From a virus: a stretch of 53,802 nt of DNA. The stretch covers positions 1 through 53,802 of the IMG/VR virus record IMGVR_UViG_3300030107_003607; one strand, 5' to 3'. The position numbers were made by a program, and so were the translations under genes. This document shows, in pieces, positions 4,762-45,342 of this stretch. The first letter of the stretch is position 1; each line of letters starts with the position of its first letter. Under the pieces are notes generated by a model. It was not told the origin of the DNA. It made no database searches and saw only the letters and a list, made by a program, of their open reading frames with translations.

Positions 4762-5203
4762 AAAGAAAAGTTTATTCGATCACGTTAATGCTGTCACGAG
4801 TCAGCAACATCCTAATTATTGGGATGAGATTTCTGATGATGACAAAAAGTCGTGGTCAAATTTTATGGTTAATAGGTTTCTTTCTATGAAGCCTGAGTGG
4901 ATAGAACTTGTGAATGAGGTTCAGAAATATCCACTAAAACCAAAAGAGCTATATAAAGTTTATATAGATTTTTTACCAAAGAAGAAACAATGGTTAAAAT
5001 ATATCAAAGGAGATAAAAAGATGAAATATCCAAAATGGGTATTAGAAATAGTTTCTAAACATTTACAATGTAGTGTTAGAGAAGCGAGTGACGCCGTAGA
5101 GATGTATGAAATATCAGCTGGCGGACAATCGGAATTAGCAGATATTTTAGGAAAGTATGGAGTTGAACAAAAGGAGATTCGTAAGCTCGGTTTAATATCA
5201 TAG
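4748..5203 (+). CDS. 62: Clamp loader small subunit (gp62-like)
   Basis: Predicted partner of the gp44-like ATPase, forming the fifth subunit of the loader. Seen: SLFDHVNAV near the N-terminus, then FMVNRFLSMKPE, matching the FMVNxxLSxxPE pattern of gp62 proteins, then a basic FLPKKKQWLKY segment equivalent to the PRGKRYGKW region of T4 gp62. Length is 151 residues against 187 for T4. The ATG at 4748 is preferred over the in-frame TTG at 4745 because AAGGA lies 5 bp upstream of it. Position two genes after the gp44-like gene supports the call. Confidence 0.82.
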   Translation: MAKVKKKSLFDHVNAVTSQQHPNYWDEISDDDKKSWSNFMVNRFLSMKPEWIELVNEVQKYPLKPKELYKVYIDFLPKKKQWLKYIKGDKKMKYPKWVLEIVSKHLQCSVREASDAVEMYEISAGGQSELADILGKYGVEQKEIRKLGLIS

Positions 5204-5205
5204 AA

Positions 5206-5838
5206 ATGAGCGTAAAGAACTTCACAGTTGAAGAAGTACCTAGAAAATCAGTAGTAAAGTTTATAGAGAAACATCACTATTCACACAATGTAAATGGTGT
5301 CCAATCTTTATATCATTATGGATTATTTACAGAGGGAAATTTCGGAATACCTAAAATGATTGGGGCTATGATGTATGCTCATCCATCAATGCCAGCTACA
5401 GCAGCTAAATACAATCCAATTAATCCCACTAAGTGTTTAGAACTTAGAAGATTAGTTTGTATTGATGCCACACCTAAAAACACAGAAAGTTTTTTTATAG
5501 GACAGACATTTAAATTACTAAAAAGAGATACAGATATGGAAGTTATAGTTTCGTTTGCTGACCAACATCACGGACATACGGGTGTGATTTACAAAGCTAC
5601 TAACTTTGATTATTTAGGTGAGACATCGAGAGGTAGGATACTAATGGTAGATGGTAAAGAAATGCATAGTAGGTCTTTGAATCAATTAGACAGGCCGTAT
5701 GGAAGAGAATTAAAACGAAGATACGAAGCTGGTGATGAAAATATATTTTGGAAGAACACAAAACCAAAGCATATTTATGTATACTATCTTAATAAAAAAA
5801 TTAAAAGACAAATAAAAAAGCTTGACTTGTATACATAA
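5206..5838 (+). CDS. Mom-like DNA-modification protein (copy 2, short form)
   Basis: A 210-residue relative of the Mom-like genes at 2059 and 37613. Shared landmarks: HHYSHN at about 23-28, LELRRLV in the middle, SFADQHHGHTGVIYKATNF (equivalent to SYADP...GAIYQATNW in copy 1), and a C-terminal KHIYVYYLNKK like KHRYIYFLGNK. It is more diverged and lacks the C-terminal tail of the other two. It follows the gp62-like gene by 2 bp. The promoter at 5822-5851 lies within its last codons, so transcription of the next gene starts inside this one. Target and chemistry are inferred from the family only; it could have a different specificity. Confidence 0.72.
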   Translation: MSVKNFTVEEVPRKSVVKFIEKHHYSHNVNGVQSLYHYGLFTEGNFGIPKMIGAMMYAHPSMPATAAKYNPINPTKCLELRRLVCIDATPKNTESFFIGQTFKLLKRDTDMEVIVSFADQHHGHTGVIYKATNFDYLGETSRGRILMVDGKEMHSRSLNQLDRPYGRELKRRYEAGDENIFWKNTKPKHIYVYYLNKKIKRQIKKLDLYT

Positions 5839-41683: not shown

Positions 41684-42013
41684 ATGGGCGACAATTGGGA
41701 TAAACTAAACAAAGCTATTATAGCTGATTCAGCTTTACAGAAGTATATAGATACTAAATTTAAGAAGCTGAATAATGTATTAAAGGATCCTGATGGTTAT
41801 AATAGTGGAATAGCCTCCGATAGTAGAGTGTCGAAAGTCGAAGAGAAAGTAGACGAATTAGCCGCTTGGAGCCACCCACCTGTTGATTTCACAAACCGAT
41901 TAGATTCACTACACGACAAAATAGATAGAGTATTAGAGTTGCTCGAGCGGATTACATCCGAGCCATCCACCAATGTATATGGTGATGACGATTGGGCGAC
42001 ACCTTCCGAATAA
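41684..42013 (+). CDS. Coiled-coil hypothetical protein, 109 residues
   Basis: Not recognised. The central and C-terminal parts form heptad helices (SRVSKVEEKVDELAAW; RLDSLHDKIDRVLELLERI). There is no clear ribosome site before ATG 41684; a TATATTTAT string lies immediately upstream, so a leaderless or weakly translated message is possible. It may be a structural or tail-fibre accessory piece. Confidence 0.55.
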   Translation: MGDNWDKLNKAIIADSALQKYIDTKFKKLNNVLKDPDGYNSGIASDSRVSKVEEKVDELAAWSHPPVDFTNRLDSLHDKIDRVLELLERITSEPSTNVYGDDDWATPSE

Positions 42014-42172: not shown

Positions 42173-42685
42173 ATGGCTAAAGTAAGCAAAAGTAAGATAG
42201 TTTGGGCGATTAATGAGACTCAGAGTATGCGTCAAGCCTCTAAATTGTTGGGCTTGGCATATAATACTTTTAAGAAGTACGCTAAGTTATATGAAGTTTG
42301 GGCACCATTGGAATCCAATAAAGGTATATCACAGAGTAAAAGCGGTGGTCTTAAACCTGTAGAGTTATTAGATATATTCGCTGGAAAGAATCCAGCGTAC
42401 TCTTCTACTAAGTTATTACACCGCTGTTTCAGAGAGGGATACTTAGCGGAAGAGTGTAGTAACTGTGGTCACGATGAATACCGCCCCTCTGATATGACTA
42501 AACCGCTAATGTTGGACTATTTGGATGATGACCAAACCAACAAAGACCTAGCCAATCTCAGGGTATTGTGTTATAACTGTTATTATCTACTCAAAATGGA
42601 CAGATTAGAGGTGGATGTACCAGCGAATGTCAAATCGTTCCAAAAGGCGATATATACCGCTTTTAATCAGAGTAGCAAATCCTAG
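42173..42685 (+). CDS. HTH plus degenerate HNH protein
   Basis: A 170-residue two-part protein. The N-terminus has a helix-turn-helix pattern (MRQASKLLGLAYNTFKKYAKLY, split at the turn LGL). The C-terminus has a zinc-binding HNH frame: CSNC (95-98), then PLMLDYLDDDQTNKDLANLRVLC and CYNCYY (133-138). In active HNH enzymes the D-x segment reads DH and the last knuckle CH; here both histidines are tyrosine (116 and 137) while the zinc cysteines and NLRVLC remain. So nuclease activity is probably lost and DNA binding kept, suggesting a regulator. ATG 42173 follows GGGG weakly; a 6-bp inverted repeat CTTTGA/TCAAAG (42129-42153) lies upstream. Confidence 0.68.
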   Translation: MAKVSKSKIVWAINETQSMRQASKLLGLAYNTFKKYAKLYEVWAPLESNKGISQSKSGGLKPVELLDIFAGKNPAYSSTKLLHRCFREGYLAEECSNCGHDEYRPSDMTKPLMLDYLDDDQTNKDLANLRVLCYNCYYLLKMDRLEVDVPANVKSFQKAIYTAFNQSSKS

Positions 42686-42789: not shown

Positions 42790-42819
42790 TTGACTCGTAT
42801 TGCATTTTATGAGTACATT
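42790..42819 (+). promoter_or_regulatory. Sigma70-type promoter D, reading into structured non-coding DNA
   Basis: -35 TTGACT (42790-42795), 18-bp spacer, -10 TACATT (42814-42819), with AAAAAAGGC prefix. The leader (TTAGGTGTTATTGAGAGAGAAAA) resembles that of the promoter at 44092, but the first ATG downstream (42848) reads ATG GTG TAA. Thus no protein gene follows for over 500 bp and the promoter likely makes the RNA at 42826-43340. Confidence 0.8.
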
Positions 42820-42825
42820 TAGGTG

Positions 42826-43340
42826 TTATTGAGAGAGAAAAAATTTAATGGTGTAATAGACGAAAAGACATCGTAGTGAAAGGGGCTGAAAAGTGCTGGG
42901 TTTCGAAACCGCAACTGAGTAAACTACGGCTTTGAAAGGCCAAAGATAGAGAGCTAATCACTCTCTTAGGTAAGAGGTTGTCTGAGACTGAAACGGAGTG
43001 ATTACCAGAGTAGGTCGTTAGTAGGGCTGGGGGGTTCGAATCCCCCCTCATCGATTCAGAAGTCGGAACTGATACAAATACCGACAAAGATTTAGGTGGT
43101 GTTGAAACGAGGATGAACCGGCGGGCGATAGTCTCAAACAATGTGGATTCCGGCTCCTCACCACCAAAAGCATTTGTTGTCCATAGGTTCGAAAGAGGAG
43201 TAGGCTTATGGTGGGGTGAGTTCCCTTAAAGTGTATATGCTCGTTTCAGACTAATATCGATTAATGTCAGAAACAGACCAACTCAAAGAATTTCAGCGGT
43301 ACGCTTAAAAATAAAAGAGCGCTAACTATTTATTACTATA
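42826..43340 (+). ncRNA. Long structured non-coding RNA candidate
   Basis: About 500 bp without a convincing ORF, GC-richer than its surroundings, directly downstream of promoter D. Perfect helices include CGTAGT (42872-42877)/ACTACG (42923-42928), palindrome 42899-42910, a TGAA-loop hairpin 42928-42941, TAATCACTC (42955-42963)/GAGTGATTA (42996-43004) competing with AGAGAG/CTCTCT (42948-42966), GGGGGG-TTCGAAT-CCCCCC (43029-43047), GTCGG/CCGAC (43062-43085), a long bulged arm 43095-43165 (GGTGG/CCACC, GAGGA/TCCTC, CCGG/CCGG) and GTTTC-A-GAC/GTC-A-GAAAC (43243-43274). The T-loop-like TTCGAAT fits the tRNA consensus, but no full tRNA or tmRNA can be built. Identity unknown. Confidence 0.6.
43029..43047 (+). 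other. T-arm-like hairpin within the structured RNA
   Basis: Six G-C pairs close a 7-base TTCGAAT loop, which fits the TTCRANY consensus of tRNA T-loops exactly. The bases after it (CTCATCG) would be the 3' acceptor strand, but a matching 5' strand is not found 60-90 bp upstream, so this is not annotated as a tRNA. Confidence 0.55.
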
Positions 43341-43353
43341 TAGGAGTAATACA

Positions 43354-43542
43354 ATGCCAAAAGATAAGCTAACAGATTTCGATGTAATAGAGATAATAGA
43401 ACAGGAGATGATCAGTATGTGGGCTACAGGCGAAATACCACATCTGCTCAAAAACGATCCAGAATTTGTCAAAGTGATTACAGAGGGTATATATATGGAA
43501 AAGAGCTTTTGGAAACGACATATGGTTATTGGAGAAGCTTAG
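43354..43542 (+). CDS. Small acidic hypothetical protein, 62 residues
   Basis: Good ribosome site (AGGAG 43342-43346) before ATG. Helical protein (FDVIEIIEQEMISMWATGEIPHLL...SFWKRHMVIGEA). Not recognised. It is the first ORF after the structured RNA, so may share its transcript. Confidence 0.62.
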   Translation: MPKDKLTDFDVIEIIEQEMISMWATGEIPHLLKNDPEFVKVITEGIYMEKSFWKRHMVIGEA

Positions 43543-43707
43543 TGACATAATGACATACCTGGTGGCATTAAGTCGTTAATCGCAAAACTATGACATTGTG
43601 ACAGGCGCTCCATACTCATTCTCGTATCGGACCAGGTTTTGAGTTCCTATAGAAATTGACATATTTGTCGTATCATAATGATAAAAAATAAACAGCTAGG
43701 AGTTATA
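43543..43707 (+). other. 165-bp intergenic stretch with inverted repeat
   Basis: No ORF. ACCTGGT (43557-43563) and ACCAGGT (43631-43637) are perfect complements 67 bp apart, and GACAT is repeated (AGTGACATAATGACAT; TATGACATTGTGACA). A TTGACA box at 43656-43661 could be a -35, but no good -10 lies at the 18-bp spacing used elsewhere (GATAAA). Holds the AGGAG site of the next gene at its end. Confidence 0.4.
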
Positions 43708-44070: not shown

Positions 44071-44091
44071 TAAAATAATTAAAGAAAAGGC

Positions 44092-44640: not shown

Positions 44641-44833
44641 CTTTGACTATGGAGATGACGAACCGGCCTATTATCATATAAAGGCTAGGGATATGAGTAT
44701 CTATAAACCTAAAGGTAAAGTTATGACTTTTTGGTTATGGGGTAATTCAGAGTCTCACATTAGAGAAATATTAAGTAAGAAAGATATAAAGGATATTGAA
44801 TGGATAAAGAAAGAGATTCCGCCGTTTGTATAG
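44630..44833 (+). CDS. Small hypothetical protein, up to 67 residues
   Basis: Not recognised. ATG 44630 has no ribosome site and overlaps the -10 of promoter F; the next in-frame methionine is at residue 22 (DMSIYKPKGK). Contains KVMTFWLWGNSESHIREIL, a strand-helix unit. Its end overlaps the next gene by 34 bp. Confidence 0.45.
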   Translation: MSKFFDYGDDEPAYYHIKARDMSIYKPKGKVMTFWLWGNSESHIREILSKKDIKDIEWIKKEIPPFV

Positions 44834-45342
44834 AGTGTAGTAATACTATATCAGACGAGCGTATTCACTTAGGTTATACAGAATGTTTAGAGTGTAGTAA
44901 AGTAGATAAATATTCTTCTCATACAGTGTACCCACATAAAACAGGTGGATATATACAACCTATCTCTGCAGAACAATCTGATAATATGAAAAGGTTAGAC
45001 CGCCGAAGTGTAGGTAGTGGGCGTAGGGCTAAAGGAATAGTAGCGGATAATAGTTGGGATAGGTGGTTAAAGGATTACTTATCTAAGAAAGACTCACCCA
45101 AAACTAAGCGTAAGACTTATCCGTTACGCACACCATTACCAATATATATCCCTTATAAAGAAGCAATCGATGAGGCGTTAAAAAAGTTTGAGTCACGAGG
45201 TTACGAAGCAGCAGCGGAACTCACACAATCTATGTATTCGAGCGACAAGATTTCGTTAGCACACAAAGCGAAAATTATGAACGAGCTTTCCTCACTAGCC
45301 GTACTCACGACCAAACAGCGTAAGTGGATGAAAAAATTATGA
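44800..45342 (+). CDS. Zinc-binding hypothetical protein
   Basis: A 180-residue basic protein whose N-terminus has two cysteine pairs, CIEC (about 10-13) and CLEC (about 29-32), similar in spacing to DksA/TraR-type zinc fingers. The centre is arginine/lysine-rich and the C-terminus helical (ALKKFESRGYEAAAEL, LAHKAKIMNELSSLAVL). DNA or RNA polymerase binding is conceivable, but no family is certain. Confidence 0.58.
   Translation: MDKERDSAVCIECSNTISDERIHLGYTECLECSKVDKYSSHTVYPHKTGGYIQPISAEQSDNMKRLDRRSVGSGRRAKGIVADNSWDRWLKDYLSKKDSPKTKRKTYPLRTPLPIYIPYKEAIDEALKKFESRGYEAAAELTQSMYSSDKISLAHKAKIMNELSSLAVLTTKQRKWMKKL

Follow-up and report, generated by a model that had tools for sequence, protein, structure and literature searches.

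The window, by which we mean the whole 53.8-kb stretch of DNA analysed (53,802 nucleotides), is the record of a marine phage. Its replication genes, among them those for a DNA polymerase and a clamp loader, are T4-like, and it also encodes UvdE, a sulfotransferase and a Mom-like protein. The nearest cultured counterpart of its polymerase is found in Microcystis phage Mel-JY01 (47% identity), and the form of the -10 elements (TAnnTTTA) suggests that the host may not belong to the Proteobacteria. On the + strand, 3' of a phage promoter, lies a conserved, structured, non-coding RNA region of about 480 nt, set among the following features.

42173-42685, +: HNH-like zinc protein, conserved 5' neighbour (PHROG HNH matches; alignment)
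42790-42819, +: sigma-70-like phage promoter, TTGACT-18-TACATT, member of a family repeated in the phage
42864-43050, +: RNA cassette A, about 187 nt, conserved structured RNA (homologues in more than 12 virus contigs; covariation)
42871-42929, +: 5' domain of A, P1 (42871-42877/42923-42929) and two inner hairpins; compensatory changes at 4 of 7 P1 pairs
42948-43003, +: pseudoknot of A, hairpin 42948-42953/42961-42966, loop AATCA (42956-42960) with TGATT (42999-43003)
42980-43027, +: helix of A, GTCT (42980-42983)/GGGC (43024-43027), with inner GACT (42986-42989)/GGTC (43013-43016)
43029-43047, +: T-arm of A, 6-bp stem and 7-nt T-loop (GGGGGG TTCGAAT CCCCCC)
43055-43085, +: cassette B, H-type pseudoknot, TCAG (43056-43059)/CTGA (43069-43072) and GTCGG (43062-43066)/CCGAC (43081-43085) (nhmmer)
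43095-43165, +: cassette G, 70-nt arm with closing stem GGTGGTG/CACCACC (L115 and L104 have homologues, at different sites)
43176-43282, +: cassette F, closing stem GTTG/CAAC, with a hairpin CCATA../..TATGG (one homologue, L115)
43294-43314, +: element E (AGCGGTACGCTtAAAAATA), directly 5' of the small ORF in relatives
43354-43542, +: acidic 62-codon ORF ending ..GEA, 3' neighbour in many relatives, though not at all A loci
43558-43659, +: tail element T, conserved, non-coding, behind the small ORF (nhmmer E 6e-29; many relatives)

A preliminary description of this DNA had proposed a promoter-driven, 500-nt structured RNA. The promoter is where it was said to be; an exact second copy of its core, GGCTTGACTCGTAT, is found at 44089, and its family counts 10 matches in the window at up to three mismatches, against 2.1 expected. 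The absence of an ORF is likewise confirmed: the first ATG behind the promoter (42848) reads ATG GTG TAA. A 98-aa minus-strand ORF is not kept open in homologues, whose longest stop-free frames are short and lie in different frames. The assertion that the region is GC-richer than its flanks holds (0.45-0.49 inside versus about 0.33-0.37 nearby), though the stretch 41800-42000 also reaches 0.445. As for the single 500-nt molecule, its being promoter-driven, non-coding, structured and unclassed stands, whereas the unity does not: the region is a chain of separate cassettes whose order varies among homologues. The many helices are present, and the 70-nt bulged arm that had been noticed corresponds to cassette G. 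Minimum free energy folding of 516 nt as a single sequence (z = -0.39) does not distinguish the region from chance, so that support for structure comes from the comparison of relatives.

The HNH-like gene adjoins the RNA array in many relatives. In the alignment its product retains the zinc cysteines, while the usual HNH histidines are replaced (LDYLDDD ... CYNCYY); the AlphaFold model (pLDDT 40) is uninformative. The product of the 62-codon ORF is predicted to be a three-helix protein (pLDDT 81) whose model finds no confident fold match. Tail element T has a wider phage distribution than cassette A.

Cassette A and its relatives

A DNA search of a collection of named phages yielded no homologue. 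Among 50 virus records sharing a glycosyltransferase gene, four contained matching non-coding DNA; more relatives came from patterns based on the conserved parts, on the small ORF that follows the array and on the HNH-like gene that precedes it. With R1, a covariance model built from the A core, and homologous contigs from IMG/VR, A members scored 96-141 bits and everything else less than 20 bits. Three of the weak R1 matches, when checked by ARAGORN, overlap tRNA or tmRNA genes; those in Mel-JY01, a tRNA-Leu and a weak intergenic T-arm, were rejected. So far A has been found in phage contigs only; it was not detected in 396 Bacteroidota genomes, under stricter filters that could miss weak members. 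There are about 11 distinct A sequences, some homologous contigs being near-duplicates and most being fragments.

The fold of A is strongly supported by covariation. In the seven full-length sequences, 95.9% of the 39 pairs are standard, 13 pairs have changed on both sides, and the covariation score of 0.339 (0.150 when shuffled) is reached by none of 500 shuffles; sliding the partner by one to three columns makes pairing fall to 36-53%. The core, compared in 10 sequences, is 94.7% paired (38-57% when slid), with a covariation of 0.305 versus 0.174 shuffled. The compensatory changes in related phages that had been named as a check on the RNA proposal are thus found for A, and they can be followed helix by helix: P1 changes from CGTAGT/ACTACG to CGCACC/GGTGCG or TGACC/GGTCA, two of the four GTCT/GGGC pairs and three of the four GACT/GGTC pairs show them, and the pseudoknot hairpin AGAGAG/CTCTCT covaries. 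The AATCA/TGATT loop helix, although paired in all 10 sequences, does not vary, and for this reason counts as conserved and compatible, unproven by covariation. Two mutually exclusive pairings of 42955-42966 had been pointed out earlier. They exist on paper, but the 10 homologues favour a compatible arrangement, and the competing pairings are better read as this conserved pseudoknot. All 10 sequences share a U-G pair that on the opposite strand would read C-A, which identifies + as the RNA strand.

Conserved A ends, at its 3' side, in the T-arm. The loop fits TTCRANY, as had been claimed, and the stem, fully paired in 10/10 sequences, covaries at two of its six pairs; the arm thus joins a 7-nt TTCRANY loop to a stem kept with compensatory changes. 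The sequence GGGNTTCRANYCCC occurs at one site in the window, the T-arm, where shuffling expects 0 in 53.8 kb; a search of virus contigs for the exact T-arm context returned no match. TTCGAA is palindromic and matches on both strands, but homologues with TTCGAGT or TTCGATT resolve the strand as +.

In Rfam 15 (4227 families), searched with the window and 14 related loci, no cassette found a match, at the cut-offs applied, beyond fragments of tmRNA restricted to the T-arm, nor did the covariance models of GOLLD, ROOL, manA and wcaG match over the cassettes of these loci. The earlier statement that no known RNA class could be named agrees with this outcome, there being neither an Rfam family nor an ARAGORN match. 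What is new is an RNA family and an array layout that match no catalogue entry; we claim no new biochemical activity.

Other cassettes and their arrangement

Cassettes B and G also appear to fold, with weaker support than A. In L081, B reads TCGG/CCGA and GTTGG/CCAAC, one compensatory change per helix; the closing stem of G shows two such changes, as does the hairpin of F relative to L115. These counts come from two sequences for F, three for G and two distinct sequence types for B. Most cassettes have their own closing helix, AGTTG/CAACT in C and GGGACT/AGTCCC in X, in addition to those given above for G and F. Linkers reading CAAAGA lie behind B, F and X; with an enrichment of only about 2.7-fold, they are a lead to processing sites, not evidence for them.

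Cassette X, the commonest partner of A, was not found in the window (G000) in a search with the R2 model. Virus stretches that contain it number 51, against only two GTDB genome contigs; the copies are tandem in L122 and L127 and circularly permuted in L142, L146 and others. Its three helices are 96% paired, with a covariation of 0.448 versus 0.164. In one phage group (L144, L145, L149, L151, L161, L175, L185) X lies in the recA 5' UTR; the gene behind it is shown to be recA in L149, and a similar N-terminus follows in the other six contigs. X placed before recA is possibly a new cis-regulatory element.

The orders below were obtained from profile searches, with promoters (P) read from sequence.

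Window: P-A-B-G-F-E-orf-T
G003: P-X-A-B-C-D-E-orf-T
L124: P-X-A-B-C-D-orf-T
L118: P-A-C-D-E-orf-T
G028: P-A-C-D, then P-X-E-orf-T
G015: P-A, then P-X-E-orf-T
L159, L165: P-X-A-B, then P and a gene judged by eye to be AAA-ATPase-like
L172: X-A, then the AAA-ATPase-like kind of gene, with a new promoter right behind the A T-arm
L152, L198, L199: P-A, then P and another gene
L115: P-F-C-D-G, at another genomic site
L104: G, at another genomic site

Since the array order is not fixed and A also occurs without the 62-codon ORF (L159, L165, L172, L152, L198, L199), the cassettes are probably units in their own right; as judged from these loci, they are shuffled between phages, and A is untied from the downstream gene.

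Interpretation of the array

Comparison of the relatives establishes that the cassettes exist, are conserved, fold and are shuffled, and that promoter-bounded copies occur in several phages. Such units suggest a trans-acting small RNA, and trans action is favoured by the occurrence of A away from the small ORF in the L159/L165, L172 and L152/L198/L199 loci. The reading that we prefer, with a probability of roughly 0.6 when taken as a whole, is that the region is a tandem array of autonomously folding, stand-alone phage ncRNA cassettes that act in trans. The array (A, B, G, F) would be transcribed from the early/middle-type phage promoter, and the cassettes would work as independent RNAs, either after processing or without it. 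In cassette A a pseudoknotted core leads into a T-arm resembling the tRNA elbow, which most likely would let the RNA engage, titrate or be stabilised by the tRNA-handling machinery of the host during infection. Candidate partners might be tRNA modification or processing enzymes, EF-Tu and tRNA-cutting defence nucleases; placed within an elbow-like fold, the T-arm could give access to tRNA-handling proteins or shield the 3' end. The step that involves the tRNA machinery is the least certain part of this explanation.

The main rival explanation makes the array a long 5' leader that acts in cis on the 62-codon ORF at 43354, under the control of a riboswitch or a protein. No terminator was found in the window between the array and this ORF, and because nothing there separates the two, a long leader is conceivable. 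It fits the window's own layout, and in G003, L124 and L118, as in the window, the cassettes run into the ORF with no terminator or second promoter detected; element E precedes the ORF in relatives, and the related cassette X occupies the recA 5' UTR mentioned above. The A copies elsewhere do not fit: rather than lying always 5' of the same gene, A stands at six loci without the ORF, bounded by its own promoter and that of the next gene; in G015 and G028 a new promoter intervenes between A and the ORF, and L115 has F, C, D and G at a different place. On balance we regard the leader as unlikely.

Much less probable still is that A is what is left of a degenerate or permuted tmRNA or tRNA gene. 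The tmRNA model (Rfam RF00023) does match A at the T-arm (model positions 347-363, E 4e-4), but at 15.4 bits against a cut-off of 47, and the resemblance is confined to these 17 nt. ARAGORN finds neither a tRNA nor a tmRNA at the A cassettes of the window and its relatives, and the Rfam scan at gathering threshold finds neither in the window, in line with the earlier remark that a tRNA or tmRNA could not be completed here. In G028 and L152 the sequence behind the T-arm can pair downstream like an acceptor stem, but the pairing is not kept in the window, G003 or L159 and was rejected as a general feature of A. Behind the T-arm, the A homologues have neither an acceptor stem nor a CCA in common, which makes aminoacylation unlikely; a search by eye of A revealed no tmRNA tag ORF, and the remainder of A has a conserved fold of its own, unlike a decaying relic. 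At the lowest end of our estimates comes a DNA-level or intron-like element (group I or II intron, packaging site or origin) that does not function as RNA. The upstream HNH-family gene recalls homing elements, but its protein is without the usual catalytic histidines; no group I or group II intron family of Rfam matches at either threshold, A sits between genes in the relatives inspected, and the U-G pair together with the compensatory changes implies selection on RNA.

If the tRNA-like arms are directed at the host tRNA machinery or at tRNA-cutting defences, they would represent a new host-takeover route. It is tempting to speculate, although we hold this as a tentative idea with the odds somewhat against it, that marine T4-like phages share a pool of autonomous structured-RNA cassettes, tRNA-elbow mimics included, that recombine into differing tandem arrays and act in trans on the tRNA biology or defence of the host; such arrays would be for RNA what accessory-gene islands are for genes, in modular form. 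Independently of this, a covariation-supported, uncatalogued and so far phage-only RNA family offers a concrete target for work on how large lytic phages use structured RNA, and its shuffling indicates that RNA cassettes can behave as exchangeable genes.

Likeness to known RNAs and side observations

The tRNA cluster of phage T4 includes the stable RNAs C and D, phage-encoded small RNAs of unknown function. Unlike T4, the window has no tRNA cluster; homology to these RNAs was compared through Rfam and the phage collection only. GOLLD is often found near tRNAs. Like tmRNA and tRNA (RF00023, RF00005), the phage RNA of cassette A bears a T-arm of 6 bp whose loop is of the TTCRANY type, and its segment GGTAAG resembles a D-loop by eye, but it differs from both in its own pseudoknotted core and in lacking acceptor stem, anticodon, CCA and tag ORF. 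GOLLD and ROOL are large, ornate, multi-domain structured RNAs, the former phage-associated (PMC12286853); each has one fixed large fold, whereas the domains in the window are separable and reordered. The manA and wcaG RNAs, structured and almost exclusively from marine metagenomes, have been detected in T4-like cyanophages, in potential 5' UTRs of defined genes (PMC2864571). Both are Rfam families, whereas the window cassettes match none and A appears stand-alone. The setting is alike in one case: contig L144, which bears X, also has a manA RNA as a separate element (1539-1732, - strand; Rfam RF01745, 63 bits).

Several further tRNA-related sequences were observed. In L110 a 195-codon ORF (5168-5755) contains, in frame, a complete tRNA-Cys(GCA) gene (5482-5556); the related ORF of the window (44800-45342) is without the tRNA insert. 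Short non-coding sequences resembling T-arm minihelices occur in L126 (about 4900-4960) and in Mel-JY01 (PP395634.1, about 128790-128888). On the reverse strand of L104, 5' of G, there is a tRNA-like RNA (GGGTTAG ... TGAGG TTCGAGA CCTCA T CTAATCCC) with a 7-bp acceptor and a T-arm. It lacks a normal anticodon arm, and a GGTGG..CTACCAATTTG hairpin comes after it in three copies.
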